A DNA stretch of 64,000 nucleotides from Flavobacteriaceae bacterium. GTDB taxonomy: Bacteria; Bacteroidota; Bacteroidia; Flavobacteriales; Flavobacteriaceae. The notes under the pieces are model-generated. The model had not been told where the DNA came from. It ran no database searches and saw nothing but the letters and a program-made list of their open reading frames with translations. Position numbers and translations under genes: made by a program. Positions 3,176 to 23,963 of this stretch are shown piece after piece; position 1 is the first letter of the stretch; the number at the start of each line of letters is the position of its first letter. The stretch spans positions 1-64,000 of the forward strand of contig JALSLK010000013.1 of NCBI GenBank assembly GCA_026988355.1, written 5' to 3'.

Positions 3176-3227
3176 AATTATATATTTTTTTTAGTTATTT
3201 TTTTAATTTAATTTACGTTTTGTAATA

Positions 3228-3289
3228 GTCAATCTTTATGCCAAGTGATTTTTATCTATTTTGTGACATGTTTTAATGTCATTTTGTCA
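3228..3289 (-). promoter_or_regulatory. Sigma54-like -24/-12 element (TTGGCAT-AAAGA-TTGA) with upstream TGACA/TGTCA repeats ahead of dnaK
   Basis: Minus strand reads TTGGCATAAAGATTGAC at 3244-3228; TGACA/TGTCA elements at 3264-3268, 3277-3281, 3285-3289; no TAnnTTTG box seen between here and dnaK. Confidence 0.4.
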
Positions 3290-3345
3290 GAAAAAATACT
3301 TTGTATGAGATAAAATTGGTAAGTTATATGTCTAATCTAAGTAAT

Positions 3346-4143
3346 TTATGAATTTTCTAATGCAAGCATTTTATCTTCTACTTTAGCTACCAATTCATTA
3401 AATTTTGGAGTTCTTTTTATAGTGCGTTCTCTTTTATATGGTAAATCGACATCTATTTTTGTTATTATTTTGGATGGTGCATATTTCATAATATGTATTT
3501 CATCTCCTAAATAAACTGCTTCATCAATATCGTGTGTTACAAATAAAATAGTTGCATTGTATTTTTCCCATATATTTAATAATAAATCTTGCATTTGCAA
3601 ACGTGTTTTTATATCTAATGCTCCAAATGGTTCATCCATCAATAATATTTTGGGATTTGCCAATAAACTTCTGGCTATGGCAACTCGTTGTAATTGTCCG
3701 CCTGATAAAGATGGGTATTGTGCATATTTCTTTTCATGTCCTTCTAATCCTACTAATTTTATCAATTCCATTGCTCTTTCTTCTCTTTCTTTTTTTGAAA
3801 CTCCTTTAAATTGCAATGCTAATCCGACATTCTCAAGAACAGTCATCCATGGTAAGGACGAATATTGTTGAAACACCATACTTACTCTATTATCTTCTCC
3901 AACGGGTTTTCCATTAACTAAAACAGTTCCTGTTGTTGGCTCTTGTAATCCTGCTATATATCGCAATATGGTTGATTTCCCACAACCACTCATTCCCATT
4001 AAAACGGTAAATAGACCTTGTTTTGGATTTTCTTTGAGTACCAAATCCAAATTTTTTAGTATAAATGTTTTTCCACCATCGTAGCTTTGTGAAACGCCTT
4101 TTAATTCAATAATATTTTTAGTATTTAATATTTTTTCTTCCAT
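3346..4143 (-). CDS. ABC transporter ATP-binding protein (NitT/TauT/SsuB-like)
   Basis: Walker A GMSGCGKST, signature LSGGQLQRVAIARSL, Walker B ILLMDEPFGALD. Confidence 0.93.
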   Translation of the reverse strand: MEEKILNTKNIIELKGVSQSYDGGKTFILKNLDLVLKENPKQGLFTVLMGMSGCGKSTILRYIAGLQEPTTGTVLVNGKPVGEDNRVSMVFQQYSSLPWMTVLENVGLALQFKGVSKKEREERAMELIKLVGLEGHEKKYAQYPSLSGGQLQRVAIARSLLANPKILLMDEPFGALDIKTRLQMQDLLLNIWEKYNATILFVTHDIDEAVYLGDEIHIMKYAPSKIITKIDVDLPYKRERTIKRTPKFNELVAKVEDKMLALENS

Positions 4144-4144
4144 A

Positions 4145-5101
4145 TCAATACTTTTTTTGTTTGTTTATATGCTTATATGGAAATAACATTTTATCTATTA
4201 GTACAAATATTCTATCTTGTATTAATCCTATAAAAACGATTACTATTAATATTGCAAAGGCTTTATCTATTCTGCTTTGTCGCTTTGCCATCCATATTAA
4301 CTCTCCTAATCCTCCGCCTTTATTTAGCATTTCTGCTATGGTTATGTAGGTCCATGAAATTGCTGTTAATACGCGTATATCGTCTATTAATTTTGAAAAT
4401 ACATAAGGCATATATACGGTTTTAATTGTTTGCCAACTTCCTGCGCCTAAAGTAAAAACGGTTCTTAGATGTACTGTTTCTACTTCTTTTATTCGTTGTA
4501 CGACTACTGGTATTAAATATACGATGATTCCAAATGCTAAAAAAAACACTTTCATTTTTGATTCTAATCCAAACCACATAATAAATATTCCTGTAACTGC
4601 GGTTAATGGTATAAATCGAATGGAATCTACTATTCGTCCAAATAAGCCGTTAAATAATGGTACTAATCCTAGTAGAAATCCTAGTAATATGGAAATAATT
4701 ATTGCTATTACATATCCTAGAACATTTAATTTAATAGAATGCATGGCATTTCCTATTAAATTATCTTTTTCTTTTAATTCTTTAAATGAACGTACTACTT
4801 TTATTGGCGATGGCAATAATGGATATACTTTATCGTTTGTTAATCCGTAATTATCTAATGTAGGTTTATCTAAGGTTTTTAAATAGTCATATTTTGCTAT
4901 AAGTAGAGAGTCATTATCGTAATATGTTCTATCGAATATTTTTGTTTTAATACGGTTATTATCTACTTGTTTTACTACTTGTTTGGATAATAATTCGGAT
5001 ACTAAAAACCAACTTATTATTACAATTATCACTCCTATAATTGATAGGAGTGATTTGGTTTTTTTATGTAAACTGCCTCTTAATTCGAATAGTGATGACA
5101 T
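4145..5101 (-). CDS. ABC transporter permease (NitT/TauT-type, BPD_transp_1)
   Basis: Multiple TM helices, typical permease region RFIPLTAVTGIFIMWFGLESKMKVFFLAFG..; an N-terminal TM plus ~60-aa insertion before the core. Confidence 0.88.
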   Translation of the reverse strand: MSSLFELRGSLHKKTKSLLSIIGVIIVIISWFLVSELLSKQVVKQVDNNRIKTKIFDRTYYDNDSLLIAKYDYLKTLDKPTLDNYGLTNDKVYPLLPSPIKVVRSFKELKEKDNLIGNAMHSIKLNVLGYVIAIIISILLGFLLGLVPLFNGLFGRIVDSIRFIPLTAVTGIFIMWFGLESKMKVFFLAFGIIVYLIPVVVQRIKEVETVHLRTVFTLGAGSWQTIKTVYMPYVFSKLIDDIRVLTAISWTYITIAEMLNKGGGLGELIWMAKRQSRIDKAFAILIVIVFIGLIQDRIFVLIDKMLFPYKHINKQKKY

Positions 5102-5125
5102 AATTATTGCAAAGCATTTTTGAAA

Positions 5126-6670
5126 TTAATCATTTACCAATTCAAAATCTGTTCTTCTATTTTTTGATCTGCATTTTTTTGTTGCATTAGATTTACATCC
5201 TTCTACTGGTTTTGACGGTCCATTTCCTAATACTATTAATCTGTTTTTTTGCATGTTATGTGCTTGTATTAAGTAATCTGCAACCGATTGTGCTCTCTTT
5301 TTAGATAGCGATACATTAGATGCAAAACTTCCTACATTATCTGTATTTCCTTCTACTCTAATTCTCGAATTAGAAAATGCTTTTGCTATTGGTATAAACT
5401 GAATGTCTATTAATTGTTTTGCATTCTCATCTAATACATATTCTCCTGTTCTAAAACTTATACTTAATCGTTTTGTTGATAAGGCTTCTTTTTTTATTAC
5501 TTTTTCATCTATGTTTGCAAATACTTTTTCTTTTTCTGCTTCTGATCCTGCTACGGTTACTTTTGCTGCTGGAACGATATCTTTACTTGCCAATAATCTC
5601 CAACTCTTTGCTCCTGCTGTACTAAAGCCTAAATCGTTGTATTTTATTTTCATTTTATTATATAGGTCTTCTCCTGTAACTCCTTTGTAATCTGAATTTA
5701 ATCCAAAGAAATTCAAATTATCTCCATGTGTCGTTAATCGTGTATTGTTTATTGCATTATAACAGAAGTCTTCTGGCATTCCTAGTCCTTTTGCTAAATA
5801 CTTTGCTGCTTCATGTTTTTTCTCTTCTGAACTATTTAGTGCTGCTGCTCCTTTCATCCATCCTTCGTACAGCTCTTTTAATTGTTGTTTATTTTTTTGA
5901 ATAAACTCTTTTTTTGCTATAAACACATCGGCAATAATATGACTTGCATTTTTTGTACTTTCTAGTACTTTAGATCCTGCTACTTTGTTTACTGCATCTT
6001 CATCGTCTGGACTCCAAACTACTGCTGCATCTACCGAATTACTTTTAAATGCATCTGCTGCATCTATGGCACTTGGCACTTCTATTATTTTCACATCTTT
6101 TGTGGTTAAATCTCCTGCTTCTAACAACCATATTAAAAACGAATGTGATGGTGTCATTGGTGCTACTGCAATTTTTTTACCTCGTAAGTCTTTTACTGTA
6201 TTTATTCCTCTTCGTGCTACAATTGCATCTCCTCCTCGACTCCAATCTGCTTGAAATACTACTTGTGGATCGTATTTCGCTAATCCTTCTATTTCTGTCG
6301 GAAATGCATCTATTGTTGCCCACATTAAATCTATATTTCCGCTTTTAAATGCATCTCTTGATGCGTCAAAATCGTCTATTACTTTAAATTTTACTTTAAA
6401 TCCGTAGTCTTTATAAAATTGAGATTCGGTATTTGCATCAAATCCTCTATTAAAGTATTGCCCTCCTGCATATCCTCCCCAAGTTACTACACCTATATTT
6501 ATTACATCTTTATATCCTTCTTTTGATGTTTTTTCTTTTTTATTTCCTTTGGTTATTTCCTTTATTTTATCTTTGAATAAATCTGTTTTTTGTGTTACAT
6601 AATACGCTCCAAAAAGAAGTACTGCAAAAATTAATATTTTAGAAAATGGTGTCAATTTTGTCTTAGCCAT
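5126..6670 (-). CDS. Membrane-anchored solute-binding protein (NMT1/SsuA-like) fused to C-terminal OmpA-like domain
   Basis: N-terminal TM (ILIFAVLLFGAYYV), SBP-type fold region (INIGVVTWGGYAGGQYFNRG...DLMWATIDAFPTE), C-terminal VEGNTDNVGSFASNVSLSKKRAQSVADYL...NRRTDFELV. Confidence 0.88.
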   Translation of the reverse strand: MAKTKLTPFSKILIFAVLLFGAYYVTQKTDLFKDKIKEITKGNKKEKTSKEGYKDVINIGVVTWGGYAGGQYFNRGFDANTESQFYKDYGFKVKFKVIDDFDASRDAFKSGNIDLMWATIDAFPTEIEGLAKYDPQVVFQADWSRGGDAIVARRGINTVKDLRGKKIAVAPMTPSHSFLIWLLEAGDLTTKDVKIIEVPSAIDAADAFKSNSVDAAVVWSPDDEDAVNKVAGSKVLESTKNASHIIADVFIAKKEFIQKNKQQLKELYEGWMKGAAALNSSEEKKHEAAKYLAKGLGMPEDFCYNAINNTRLTTHGDNLNFFGLNSDYKGVTGEDLYNKMKIKYNDLGFSTAGAKSWRLLASKDIVPAAKVTVAGSEAEKEKVFANIDEKVIKKEALSTKRLSISFRTGEYVLDENAKQLIDIQFIPIAKAFSNSRIRVEGNTDNVGSFASNVSLSKKRAQSVADYLIQAHNMQKNRLIVLGNGPSKPVEGCKSNATKKCRSKNRRTDFELVND

Positions 6671-6750
6671 AATAATTTAATTTTGTTTTGTTTGATTTTT
6701 TAATTTGCAAATATAGTATTTATAAAATAGGTAGTGTTATCTGTTAATTG

Positions 6751-7365
6751 TTACAAATATTTATTTATTTTTTTTATATCTTCTCGCATCTCTTGTATCA
6801 ATTTATTGGTTGTAGCTTCAAAATCGCCACTCGTATGGCCATTTAAACTTCCGTACAATTTCTTTTCTAAATCCGATATTTCTTTGGTTAATTGTTTTAT
6901 TTGTTTCTTTTTAGATGCTATTTTTTTTAAAATTTCACTTTCTTCTCTACTATCTATATTTGTTTTGTTATTTTCTTTTAATGTTTTAATAAATTTTATT
7001 CGTTCGTTATTAAGTACTCTTTGATAGAATCCTATTGATTGTAACAATTTTGGCACGGTTACTCCTAATGTTTTTGCGGTTGCAAATGCGGAACGATATC
7101 TTGTTTTTTCGTCCATTTCCATAGACTCTAATGACTTTATTGCATTTTTATACTCTAAATAATCAAACCCTTCTTGGTTATTCTCATTTAGAATAGTTAA
7201 TAATTGCGTCATTATTCTATTACTTGCTTTTCCTTCGGATTCAGAGTATACTTTTGATTCTAAAACTCCTTTTTTGGTAAAATCAACAGCATCCGTTTTT
7301 GGCTTATCATCATTAGATTTTTCTTCTTCTTGAACGATAAATAAAGCTTTTAATTTGTCTAGCAT
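6751..7365 (-). CDS. Conserved hypothetical protein with C-terminal coiled coil, first gene of the ABC/OmpA operon
   Basis: 204-aa ORF, Lys/Glu-rich coiled-coil tail, same strand and close spacing to 5126-6670. Confidence 0.75.
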   Translation of the reverse strand: MLDKLKALFIVQEEEKSNDDKPKTDAVDFTKKGVLESKVYSESEGKASNRIMTQLLTILNENNQEGFDYLEYKNAIKSLESMEMDEKTRYRSAFATAKTLGVTVPKLLQSIGFYQRVLNNERIKFIKTLKENNKTNIDSREESEILKKIASKKKQIKQLTKEISDLEKKLYGSLNGHTSGDFEATTNKLIQEMREDIKKINKYL

Positions 7366-7440
7366 GATTCAATTCGTTTTCGCAAAGTTACAATTTTTTA
7401 AAGATTATTTGCTTTGTCTTATTCTTTACATTAAAGATAC

Positions 7441-8796
7441 TTATTTTCTCTTATTACGTTTATTGTAATTCTTATCTCCTCTAGTTTTTGGCTTTTTATA
7501 TTTTTTTGCCAATTCTCTTCGGTATTTTCCTCCTGCATTTACTTGCGAATTCTTTTCACTTTTTTCATGAAATGCTTCGCCTTTAACAAATCCTATGGTT
7601 GTTTTATGTGGATTATATCCTTCTTTTTCTTGTGGTTGTTCTTCTCTTGTTAATTTTTCTGAAATTATTACTTCTTTTGGAAAAGGCAACTTTGGTATCT
7701 CATAATCCATTAATTTTATGATGGCTTCTCTATATGGTTGTTCGTGTTCTGTTGTAAATAAAATGGATTTCCCTTCTTTTTTTGCTCTTCCTGTTCTTCC
7801 TATTCGATGCATGTAATTTTCTGGAAAATTTGGTGTGTCAAAATTGATTACATGACTTATTTCTTCTATATCCAATCCACGAGCCATTACATCGGTAGAA
7901 ACCAATATTCGATTTTCTCCTTCTGCAAATTGCTTTATAGAGCGTATTCGATAATTCTGTGTTTTGTTAGAATGTATAATACATAATGTATCATTATACA
8001 TTTCATCTAACACTTCAAACAATAAATCTGCTCTTCGTTTATTGGAAACAAATACCAAAACTTTACGATACGTTTCTTTATCTTTTAATAAATAAGATAA
8101 TAAATTTGCCTTGGTGTAAAAATTTTCAACATCATAAGTTGTTTGTGCTATATTATTTAATGGCGTTCCACTTACGGCTATCGACACTTTTTTTGGCGCT
8201 ATAAAGTAATCTGTAATCAATGCATCTACATCGTCTGTCATTGTTGCTGAAAACATAATATTTTGCCGCTTCGATGGTAGTATTTCAAAAATATTCATTA
8301 GTTGAAATCGAAATCCTAAATCCAACATAACATCGACTTCATCTATTACTATTTTTTTTATATCGGATGCCTTTAACGCTTTACTTAAGGCTAAATCGTA
8401 TAATCTTCCTGGTGTTGCTACTAGTATATCTTGTCCTTCGGAAATGGCTTTTTTTTGGGTATTTATATTGGTTCCTCCATACACTCCTAATACACGAAGG
8501 TTTATATACTTTGCTAATTTTTCGACCTCTTCTACTACTTGTAACACCAATTCTCTTGTTGGTACTAAAATTAATACTCTAGGGTTTAATTGTTCCGAAT
8601 ATTTTAAACCTCTAATTATTGGTAGTATGTAAGCAAATGTTTTTCCTGTTCCTGTTTGCGCTATTCCTACCATATCGCTTCCAGACATTATTACTGAAAA
8701 TGATTTTTCTTGTATTGGTGTTGGTGTTTTAAAGCCTAAATCATGTAATGCATTTAGCTGTTGCTTGGATAGGTTTAAATCTTCAAAAGTGGACAT
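7441..8796 (-). CDS. DEAD-box RNA helicase (RhlE/CshA-like)
   Basis: AQTGTGKT, PTREL, VIDEVD (DEVD variant of motif II), SAT, HRIGRTGRA motifs; basic C-terminal tail. Confidence 0.95.
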   Translation of the reverse strand: MSTFEDLNLSKQQLNALHDLGFKTPTPIQEKSFSVIMSGSDMVGIAQTGTGKTFAYILPIIRGLKYSEQLNPRVLILVPTRELVLQVVEEVEKLAKYINLRVLGVYGGTNINTQKKAISEGQDILVATPGRLYDLALSKALKASDIKKIVIDEVDVMLDLGFRFQLMNIFEILPSKRQNIMFSATMTDDVDALITDYFIAPKKVSIAVSGTPLNNIAQTTYDVENFYTKANLLSYLLKDKETYRKVLVFVSNKRRADLLFEVLDEMYNDTLCIIHSNKTQNYRIRSIKQFAEGENRILVSTDVMARGLDIEEISHVINFDTPNFPENYMHRIGRTGRAKKEGKSILFTTEHEQPYREAIIKLMDYEIPKLPFPKEVIISEKLTREEQPQEKEGYNPHKTTIGFVKGEAFHEKSEKNSQVNAGGKYRRELAKKYKKPKTRGDKNYNKRNKRK

Positions 8797-20570: not shown

Positions 20571-23500
20571 TTAAAAATTAGCACGTAGTTGTACCGTACC
20601 AGTATGAATCGCTTTAAAATCGGTTGATTTTCGTGCATTGTAATTTAGATTAATATCTAAATAATTTGTGAGCTTTTTTTGAAAAACAAAATTCCAAGTA
20701 TAGTTTTTACCATTTTGTAAACCTTCTAACATTTGAAATCCTACTGGCGAATTTTGATTGCCAATAAAAGCATTGTTTATATAATCAAACGAAGTGTGTA
20801 AAGATACATTCTGATTTTTAGCATACGTAAATGAAACGCCTATTTTATTAGAAATTAACGATTCCATTAACAATATTCTATTGCTTTTATCTTTATAATT
20901 ATAATGTAAATCTAGAGAGGTGCTTTTTCCGTAAAGATAAGCAATTTTAGCTTTTAAATCACTGGTTAACAATTCAAAATTTCTACTAGAATAGCGTTCA
21001 TTAGTACTCTTTGTTTTAATACGATTTCCATGTAAATCTAACAACCAAGAAGTATTTAATTTATGCTGGAATTGTAGTTGATTGGAACGGATGTCGTTTT
21101 CTTGTGTTCCTATTGCAAAAGCGGTTTTATTCGTAGCTTTTAAATACGAATACGTTGTAGAGTAATGCTGTTTACCACGATTAAAATAAAAATTATTCTT
21201 TAAATTATATTTTATAGATAGTGCATTATTTCGCTCAAATGGATTTAACTGAAAACTACCCGTTTTTAAATATTTATTATCAATCTGCATGGTCGTTTGG
21301 TTAAAAAAATGAGCAGCAATTTTTTTAATTCCATTACCATTTGTCCATTTTGAGGGATTAAGATGTAACGATTGACTAAATTTTGTTTGGTTTGTTCTAA
21401 CAAACTGTATGGTAGGTAATAATACACGTACATAAGTTGCTTGATCTTGAAATTGAGCAATTTCAAACTCATCTAAATCTTGTATACCATCATTATTAAA
21501 ATCAATCCAAGTATAAAAACCTTGTCCAGCCTCTACCTCTAAATAGTTAAATTCTTGTTGTGGCAAAGCACCAGAACTGGTTTCAAAAACACTTTGCAAT
21601 CGTATAAAATTATTTGCTAATTCTTGACGATAGTGTATTCTAGAGTTGATAGACTCATCATCGTTAAAATGTGTGTTTTTTAATTTTCGATAATGCAAAT
21701 AAACGCTTAAATTTGATATTTTATTTTGTATAATTCTCGACTTAATATAATACGTTCTCGACTTACTAAAATTCTGAATACGAGATAATTGTACGCTATC
21801 ATTTTTTCTAAAACTATAGCCTAGTTCTAAATTTACTTTTGTACTGTCTCCGATACCAAAATACACATCATAATTACTATTTTTATGACTTGAGTTACTA
21901 AGTTGTTGCGTTGTTTTATTTTTGCGAATATTATCCTCAAAAAACAATCTCGCTCCTAACCAAAACTTTTTGGAAACTTGTTGTCTAATATCTGTATCTA
22001 ATTTGGAAAATTTACTTGATTCTAAAGTAGAATTACTCGATAATATACTAGCATCTAGTGTAATTTTCGTTTTATTAAAATGAAAATTACTGGCAAATTT
22101 ATGTTTTAAACCTTTAAAATTTTCATTAAAAGTTAAATTTTCAAACTGATACTGTAAAAAGCCTTGTTTTTCATTTTCATAAATCAAGTTAGCCAATAAC
22201 AAATCTTGATTTCCTAGGAGATTCGTTATATTCCAATCTCTATTAAATTCTACTCGATTAATTCGCTCAACGGTATTAAAATTGTGTTGAATTTTTTCAT
22301 ATTGAAGGGTGCTTTTTAACTTCCAATTTTTATCGAGTAACAATTGTTTCCAATTTAGTCTACCAGCAAACCCTTGATTATTTCCATCGTCAATATCCGA
22401 AAATAAATTTTTGTCATTATTACTAAAAGCGATTTCGGTTGATAATGCTATTTTCTTATTTGGAATAAAATCTGCTTTAAACGTCGTTATTTGGAGTTTA
22501 TTTGGTGCTACCAAACGGATGGTTGGTTCATAATCCCCTTGCTTAACACCATTAACAGGTGCAATATATTCATAAATTCGACCAGTAGCAACGGTATTTT
22601 TAATACGATAATCGCCTTGATTTACTCCTAACAAACGAAATCGAACTCCATATAACACATCCGTTTGGTTACTTGAAAAAACGAAAACTTCAACACCATT
22701 TACCACTTCTTTTTTATATTGAATTTTATTTTCTATATATGCTTCTTGTACTGCACTTAAAGCTTGCATTTGCGATAAATCATCGCCTGCATTAATTAAA
22801 ACTTGCTGTTGTTCTTCGCTTAAATCTTGTTGTAGGGTTTGGTTTTTTGCATCGTTTTCATTGTAAAAACCAACCTGTACCTGTAACTTTTCAGAAGCAA
22901 AATCTATTTTATCAAAAGTTACAAAACGTGTATAATTTTGATCACTTGCTTGAAATTCGACATGAATTCGCATATTAGAATTGATTGGATATGTTGTGTT
23001 AAACGTTATTTCTGCTGTATTATAATCGATCACATAATCTTTACTTTCGCCTCGAGTTAAAGGAATTCCATTAACAAAAACAGTTTCACTTCCAGAAATT
23101 ATCAATAAAAACGGCACATTACTTGTTGCTAACCGATATGGTCCTTGATTGGCTTCTAATCCATTAAAATCGACCGACGTAAACTTTCCTCTAACCAATG
23201 CTCCAGAGGCAAAAATATTTGTTTTATTAGTAGCATTTCCTAAATTAATATCTACCGAAATACCTGCAACTTTTTTATTAAAATTCAAATAAGCATTCGC
23301 ATTATTATTAAAATTAATATCTCCAGCAGTTAAACGCCATTTGCTACTAAATAATTCAATAAAAACCCTATCAAATTCGTTTAAACGTTGTGTATAACCA
23401 TTTTCTTGTAGAGGCACATTAGTATCGGTAATATTAGCTCTTATTTTAACTTTTTTAGATAAATTTCCACTTATTTGCAAATCAAAATTAGAATTTAAAA

Positions 23501-23963
23501 CGCCATCTTGGTTATTTCCCATTGTTATACCTCTCGACAAACTTCCATTAGTATCTAGACCTCTAAAAGGTTTACTGTAAGAATTATTTATACTAGAACT
23601 TGAACTATAAAGACGCGTTAAATTTTTAGAATTTGTAACAATTAACTTTTCATCGAACGGTTTGTATGTTTTTGTTAAAAATTTAGGAAGAGATTCATAT
23701 ACAATGCTAATTGTTTTGTCCAAATACGTTGTATCGGTAAAAAACAGATTTGCTTTTGCAAAATTAACCTTATATTTAGAAGTGTCAATTATAACCTTAT
23801 TAGCATCTATAGCTTTAAAGTAAAATGGACTTACACTAACTGTATCAAAAACAATAGTATCTTTTTTTACTAAAACTTGCTTGGTAATACGATTTGTTGG
23901 AATTTCTTGTGCTAGGACAAAAAAGTTAACGCTTAAGAAGCTAAAAACAATAAATCGTTTCAT
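20571..23963 (-). CDS. Large conserved outer-membrane/cell-surface beta-barrel-like protein
   Basis: Signal peptide, SRGITMGNNQDGVLNSNFDLQISGNLS, abundant alternating aromatic beta strands, terminal Phe (QLRANF). Confidence 0.75.
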   Translation of the reverse strand: MKRFIVFSFLSVNFFVLAQEIPTNRITKQVLVKKDTIVFDTVSVSPFYFKAIDANKVIIDTSKYKVNFAKANLFFTDTTYLDKTISIVYESLPKFLTKTYKPFDEKLIVTNSKNLTRLYSSSSSINNSYSKPFRGLDTNGSLSRGITMGNNQDGVLNSNFDLQISGNLSKKVKIRANITDTNVPLQENGYTQRLNEFDRVFIELFSSKWRLTAGDINFNNNANAYLNFNKKVAGISVDINLGNATNKTNIFASGALVRGKFTSVDFNGLEANQGPYRLATSNVPFLLIISGSETVFVNGIPLTRGESKDYVIDYNTAEITFNTTYPINSNMRIHVEFQASDQNYTRFVTFDKIDFASEKLQVQVGFYNENDAKNQTLQQDLSEEQQQVLINAGDDLSQMQALSAVQEAYIENKIQYKKEVVNGVEVFVFSSNQTDVLYGVRFRLLGVNQGDYRIKNTVATGRIYEYIAPVNGVKQGDYEPTIRLVAPNKLQITTFKADFIPNKKIALSTEIAFSNNDKNLFSDIDDGNNQGFAGRLNWKQLLLDKNWKLKSTLQYEKIQHNFNTVERINRVEFNRDWNITNLLGNQDLLLANLIYENEKQGFLQYQFENLTFNENFKGLKHKFASNFHFNKTKITLDASILSSNSTLESSKFSKLDTDIRQQVSKKFWLGARLFFEDNIRKNKTTQQLSNSSHKNSNYDVYFGIGDSTKVNLELGYSFRKNDSVQLSRIQNFSKSRTYYIKSRIIQNKISNLSVYLHYRKLKNTHFNDDESINSRIHYRQELANNFIRLQSVFETSSGALPQQEFNYLEVEAGQGFYTWIDFNNDGIQDLDEFEIAQFQDQATYVRVLLPTIQFVRTNQTKFSQSLHLNPSKWTNGNGIKKIAAHFFNQTTMQIDNKYLKTGSFQLNPFERNNALSIKYNLKNNFYFNRGKQHYSTTYSYLKATNKTAFAIGTQENDIRSNQLQFQHKLNTSWLLDLHGNRIKTKSTNERYSSRNFELLTSDLKAKIAYLYGKSTSLDLHYNYKDKSNRILLMESLISNKIGVSFTYAKNQNVSLHTSFDYINNAFIGNQNSPVGFQMLEGLQNGKNYTWNFVFQKKLTNYLDINLNYNARKSTDFKAIHTGTVQLRANF

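Follow-up and report, generated by a model that had tools for sequence, protein, structure and literature searches.

A wall-anchored ABC transporter cluster in a Flavobacteriaceae genome is a reduced copy of a system carried mainly by huge phages

The window, a stretch of 64,000 nucleotides from a Flavobacteriaceae bacterium (contig JALSLK010000013.1), carries a minus-strand cluster of four genes. They encode an ATP-binding cassette (ABC) ATPase, an ABC permease, a solute-binding protein (SBP) fused to an OmpA-like domain (SBP-OmpA), and a helical protein that we call COIL. We find that this set is a rare, reduced copy of a system whose fuller version is carried mainly by huge phages. Synteny and the predicted fold show that, beside the transporter, the complete system has a putative membrane-anchored protein of PspA/Vipp1 fold, with COIL as its closely coupled helical partner. 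Tentatively, and with somewhat less than even confidence, we read the whole as a wall-anchored, ligand-gated ABC importer or sensor that works together with an ESCRT-III-like membrane guard of its own, and of this the window holds a reduced copy. The initial annotation of the window genes had overlooked the PspA/ESCRT-III-like partner gene, its absence from the window genus, and the mainly phage-borne distribution. The cluster is laid out as follows.

3346..4143, minus strand: ABC ATPase, TauB/SsuB/NrtD-like, 265 aa (Pfam ABC_tran, E 1.2e-30; NCBIfam)
4145..5101, minus strand: ABC permease, TauC/SsuC/SaoP-like, 318 aa (Pfam BPD_transp_1, NCBIfam, hydropathy, alignment)
5126..6670, minus strand: SBP-OmpA fusion, 514 aa (Pfam NMT1_2 and OmpA, alignments)
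6671..6750, minus strand: 80-nt spacer between COIL and SBP-OmpA, where sister loci have the PspA/ESCRT-III-like gene
6751..7365, minus strand: COIL, a 204-aa helical/coiled-coil protein (gene call and homologs)

Bacteroidota relatives of the cluster contain a fifth gene. In genomes from GTDB (Tenacibaculum, Lacihabitans, and others), the gene order is COIL, a protein of ~334 aa, SBP-OmpA, permease, and ATPase. The ~334-aa gene is present in loci L009-L011, L013, and L014, the last of which has a sequence that ends before COIL. Wherever the locus is complete, COIL directly precedes this gene and often overlaps it. COIL homologs are 25-62% identical and are also present in phage loci. COIL has no match of weight in Pfam, NCBIfam, or PHROG, and its AlphaFold2 model (predicted local distance difference test, pLDDT, 71) provides a usable core with no match in the PDB. 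A gene for a large AAA+ protein lies downstream of the operon in L009-L011. Following the AAA+ gene in the Tenacibaculum locus L009 (15244-17973) are a superfamily 1 (SF1) helicase, matched by MkoA/MkoC models, and a 2OG-Fe dioxygenase. Two viral contigs have an AAA+ ATPase gene directly upstream of COIL (L019 4520-5935; L024 4649-6040), echoing the bacterial AAA+ link.

The ~334-aa protein is predicted to share the fold of PspA, Vipp1, and ESCRT-III. It has N-terminal transmembrane (TM) helices and a weak Pfam match to PspA_IM30 (best E 9e-4, 19.4 bits against a cut-off of 33.9). When its AlphaFold2 model (pLDDT 63) was compared with the PDB using Foldseek, filaments of Vipp1, PspA, and ESCRT-III led the matches with probabilities up to 1.00, and the match to 6zvs had a TMt of 0.79 over 133 columns. 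Against viral models, the matches were to PspA/IM30 of Acinetobacter phage ME3 and to a Snf7-family protein, both with marginal E-values. We thus treat the protein as a putative membrane-anchored protein that belongs to the ESCRT-III superfamily or is closely related to it, and refer to it as PspA-like. Unlike PspA and Vipp1, which share its predicted fold, it has N-terminal TM helices, and the window genome lacks it.

The five-gene cassette recurs across large viral genomes. Scanning IMG/VR with profiles of SBP-OmpA and the PspA-like protein yielded 49 distinct contigs of up to 512 kb, a few of them near-duplicates, so that independent cases are somewhat below this count. All five genes are present in the same order and on the same strand in 40 of the 49; five of the other nine end within ~350 nt of the last match. 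COIL and the PspA-like gene overlap or are spaced by no more than 30 nt in 35 of the 40 five-gene contigs. Alternative genetic codes were considered as the cause of apparent gene gaps at some of these loci and rejected, as scanning all open reading frames (ORFs) recovered the genes. Among INPHARED records, the fusion is present in all 15 matching Lak megaphages (540-552 kb) and in both records of a 735-kb phage, while fusions of related form occur in phages of 595 kb and 462 kb. The cassette is complete in Lak-A1, Lak-B4, Lak-C1, and the 735-kb phage. Terminase-family matches were found in 22/27 IMG/VR contigs tested and in 5/5 named phages, and tail-sheath matches in 10/27 of the same contigs, some of these terminase and tail-sheath matches being weak. 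The gene set grouped together by the initial annotation does co-occur: the fusion and the gene order were found again in dozens of independent loci. Given this recurrence, the arrangement is not due to chance.

Bacillus phage G, also in INPHARED, carries matching parts of the system: a permease (gp243), an ATPase (gp245), and a pair of fusions (gp249 and gp250). For the intervening gp246 and gp247, homology to COIL and the PspA-like protein was rejected (profile-profile probability <3%), and we regard them as positional analogs only. In this phage of a Gram-positive host, gp249 and gp250 are tandem fusions (L031 7352-10557) with divergent ligand-site residues. Upstream of the operon in the 735-kb phage, the largest of these (LR756501; L032 5045-6385), a gene encodes a protein with Fib_succ_major and Por_Secre_tail domains, the latter associated with type IX secretion system sorting; this points to a Bacteroidota host for the phage.

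In Bacteroidota the system is rare, and in the window genus it is reduced. When sampled Bacteroidota genomes were searched (297, then 396), the sole match was the window's own genome, and a search of relatives found the system in one congener. That congener's locus (L012/L029), the only such locus found among the congeners, has the same arrangement without the PspA-like gene. A PspA-like profile found no match in the window genome or five congeners and was positive in all five control genomes, and relocation of the gene elsewhere in the window genome was rejected on this basis. Canonical PspA, a potential substitute, was not found in the window genome, and no AAA+ ATPase gene lies beside the cluster. 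The closest sister copy, L014, retains the PspA-like gene, so the most parsimonious account is that the window genus lost it. When 27 fusions were placed in a tree, five bacterial copies made up the window clade (support 100/100), which joined four phage copies (95/95), and L013 sat apart among phage copies. This topology suggests transfer of the cassette from phage to bacterium.

The SBP-OmpA fusion appears to be anchored twice. Its parts are the following.

6596..6652, minus strand: N-terminal membrane anchor, residues 7-25, without a lipobox (hydropathy)
5636..6508, minus strand: NMT1/TauA-like binding domain, residues 55-345 (Pfam, TauA alignment)
5129..5470, minus strand: OmpA-like peptidoglycan-binding domain, residues 401-514 (Pfam, 3td3 alignment)

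Both domains named in the initial annotation score above their Pfam cut-offs within one protein: NMT1_2 at residues 81-292 (E 1.8e-12, 48.1 bits against 24.7), NMT1 (39.3 bits against 20.5), and OmpA at residues 406-497 (E 5.3e-17, 62.4 bits against 27.2). The protein has a single hydrophobic stretch at its N terminus, residues 7-25, with no lipobox cysteine. A lipobox is missing from all 16 aligned fusions, and 15 of them have no cysteine at all within the first 45 residues, in line with the uncleaved-looking anchor described earlier. While NMT1/TauA-type SBPs are usually soluble or lipid-anchored, the window protein and its 15 relatives thus seem to have an uncleaved-type TM anchor instead. 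By alignment to Acinetobacter baumannii OmpA (3td3), the residues that we take to contact diaminopimelate correspond to D444 (in TDNVG) and R459 (in LSKKRAQ), and both are invariant across the 16-row alignment. The aspartate is the one first proposed; the peptidoglycan-contact arginine is R459 rather than the arginine of the NRR motif. Judged from its sequence, the binding protein would be held in the inner membrane by its N-terminal helix and on peptidoglycan by its OmpA domain, and the anchoring to both membrane and wall proposed at the outset is upheld.

The binding domain retains a probable ligand site. We aligned it to TauA (6ssy), with ligand residues taken from PMC6906117, and found that D148, W219, and D248 match E106, W176, and D205 of TauA, respectively. 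In TauA, E106 and D205 keep the taurine amine in place. D148 is kept in 63/63 fusions and stand-alone SBPs compared, and D248 in nearly all of those that are not of a ~600-aa type. Most fusions of 510-530 aa, the type found in the window, retain both D248 and a P-S-H loop (174-176). In the ~600-aa type, D148 and the OmpA residues persist, but the loop differs (mostly D-G-D) and D248 is absent. This distribution suggests a working small-ligand site with at least two specificities across the fusions, and the ligand of the window-type SBP may be positively charged. Because the TauA ligand-contact positions are kept, the SBP has probably retained the ability to bind a small ligand. The same two acids and tryptophan speak against the initial annotation where it set ordinary nutrient uptake aside. 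As a further clue to the ligand, riboswitches were sought in the loci examined, with no match.

The transporter parts belong to a known neighborhood of importers. Permease and ATPase are closest to TauC/SsuC/SaoP and TauB/SsuB, respectively, and the nearest NCBIfam families of the transporter parts together are TauABC, SsuABC, NtrB, and SaoP; all of these matches are well below equivalog cut-offs. TauABC and SsuABC resemble the window SBP, permease, and ATPase most closely, including the TauA ligand acids and tryptophan. They differ in that the window SBP is membrane-anchored and OmpA-fused, and in that the window proteins do not reach their equivalog cut-offs. Both an additional N-terminal TM helix and a periplasmic insertion had been attributed to the permease. 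Hydropathy places an equivalent of the helix (residues 17-35) in a 267-aa phage permease, and it is probably an ordinary TM1. The insertion that follows it stands: the extra stretch is the TM1-TM2 interval (~residues 36-93), which is longest in L013.

The window genes are probably expressed from two promoters. Four co-directional minus-strand genes had been called, and their coordinates, order, and gaps of 1-80 nt are all borne out: 1 nt between ATPase and permease, 24 nt between permease and SBP-OmpA, and 80 nt between SBP-OmpA and COIL. The minus strand from 3200 to 7500 contains just two TAnnTTTG motifs, which we take to be Bacteroidota -7-type promoter elements, and they lie directly 5' of the 204-aa gene (7390) and the SBP gene (6715).

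7383..7390, minus strand: promoter motif TAACTTTG, Bacteroidota -7-type, before the 204-aa gene
6708..6715, minus strand: promoter motif TATATTTG, Bacteroidota -7-type, before the SBP-OmpA gene

Because a motif precedes each of these genes, two transcription units are likelier than the single four-gene operon first described. The cluster is neighbored by genes for DnaK and a DEAD-box helicase, and ligA and similar chromosomal genes also flank it. A location within a prophage was rejected on the basis of these chromosomal flanks (dnaK, DEAD-box helicase, ligA). Elsewhere in the window, a minus-strand ORF of 1130 aa (20571-23963) has no Pfam match at E 1e-5.

Bacterial operons of this kind are already on record. 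A single passage of Ravi et al. (2024, mSystems; PMC11237479) mentions operons of PspA/Snf7 (with TM), AAA+, ABC ATPase/permease, and PBPB-OmpA, and these authors propose, in broad terms as we do here, that membrane remodeling is linked to solute transport. Loci L009-L011, which have an AAA+ gene nearby, match this parts list. The window shares the ABC ATPase, permease, and SBP-OmpA, but not the TM-containing PspA/Snf7 homolog or a linked AAA+ gene. The text of Ravi et al. (PMC11237479) makes no mention of phage genomes or of the helical COIL gene. Likewise, the cassette is not mentioned in the phage literature searched (on huge phages and Lak phages, a jumbo-phage overview with Lak-B8 and phage G, and a 2026 review), supplementary tables lying outside the search. 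The new part is therefore the phage-wide distribution; the operon kind was already noted in bacteria, and the window copy is its reduced variant.

More remote relatives occur beside TelA. Clusters on the Vibrio plasmids pSEA2 and pIFO15640 also group ATPase, permease, and SBP-OmpA fusions. Unlike the window cluster, they have a pair of SBP-OmpA fusions together with vWA and TelA, and identity is only ~25%; a PspA-like gene is absent from them. The association of such fusions with TelA put forward at the outset is therefore real, in remote relatives. At the window itself no TelA or TerBCDF match was found by Pfam among the four genes and the adjacent genes scanned, in keeping with the earlier remark that TelA is not seen there. 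The plasmids are 285-306 kb in size, and their clusters (L039 7914-16743; L040 7916-16754) also hold a separate SBP. The 595-kb phage (L037) has a layout like that of the plasmid clusters, with vWA and no Pfam TelA; its 357-aa protein was considered as TelA or PspA-like, and neither identity was found.

In the mechanism that we propose, the SBP would sense, and probably deliver, a positively charged small ligand while held at a constant spacing between the membrane and the wall. Through COIL, the ligand-dependent cycle of permease and ATPase would control assembly of the ESCRT-III-like polymer, and the polymer would keep the inner membrane sealed or reinforced at the wall-attached site. Huge phages may carry the system to protect the host envelope through a long infection. 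The window copy would be a chromosomal relic or repurposed form, in which the ESCRT-III part was lost and the transporter kept under its own promoter. Several points weigh against this reading. The anatomy is secure, while for function, ligand, polymerization, and the physical coupling of the ABC complex to the PspA-like protein we rely on inference. The PspA-like model is of modest confidence (pLDDT 63), and the low identity of the TauA alignment makes the ligand-site reading an indirect one. Terminase matches are weak in some contigs. The backbone of the tree is poorly supported, which leaves the direction of transfer unproven. Nor can the mechanism apply to the window copy in its present form, which is missing the PspA-like protein.

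Other explanations fit parts of these data. The cluster might be an ordinary importer of the taurine/sulfonate/nitrate class with a wall-anchored SBP, serving in phages as an auxiliary metabolic gene that feeds the infected cell, with the PspA-like protein only protecting the surrounding membrane. We regard this as unlikely, although the closest families are TauABC, SsuABC, NtrB, and SaoP, ligand-site residues are conserved, and the window retains just the transporter core and COIL, as an importer would. Such an importer leaves unexplained why the five genes stay so strictly linked in phages whose binding-site types differ; no riboswitch was matched in the loci searched, and few metabolic genes were recognized among the flanking genes scanned, a small sample.

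Somewhat less probable is a superinfection-exclusion or anti-phage module, in which a peptidoglycan-anchored sensor detects the breach of the envelope by incoming DNA and a sub-membrane PspA-like or TelA layer blocks entry. For jumbo phages, TelA/Ter proteins have been proposed to build structures beneath the membrane that prevent superinfection (PMC7824862), a proposal that such a module could draw on, and plasmid relatives have TelA without the PspA-like gene. The OmpA part also matches the MotB-type domains of Zorya ZorB, and the Tenacibaculum operon is followed by an SF1 helicase resembling defense helicases. Yet the four window proteins match defense models only through shared generic domains, and a mechanical sensor has no need of a ligand-binding importer. 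A further alternative is a device like FtsEX, in which the ABC pair would connect peptidoglycan and cytoplasm via the tethered SBP-OmpA, passing on force or the state of the wall, with no transport. The double anchoring and invariant OmpA residues suit it, but such a device would have no need of a ligand cleft whose conservation is strong and subfamily-specific, and we consider it improbable.

Of the importer or sensor coupled to a membrane guard, a broader version can be drawn, which we put forward as a possibility with more chance of failing than of holding. Several huge-phage lineages would carry a conserved ESCRT-III-like guard gated by a wall-anchored, ligand-binding ABC transporter, keeping the host inner membrane intact or closed to rivals while a long infection runs; a few Bacteroidota would have captured it, and the window genus would keep just the transporter half. 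Among phages with the largest genomes, few shared non-structural functions are recognized. Here, one envelope module recurs with its five genes in the same order: Lak phages have it, as do the 735-kb phage and dozens of further large viral contigs, while phage G and other huge phages hold related versions. Such a shared module points to a common need, that of maintaining a functional host membrane while infection lasts. It also offers a testable case of an ESCRT-III-like protein with possible ties both to an ABC transporter and to the cell wall, and one of the phages concerned, phage G, is open to laboratory culture.

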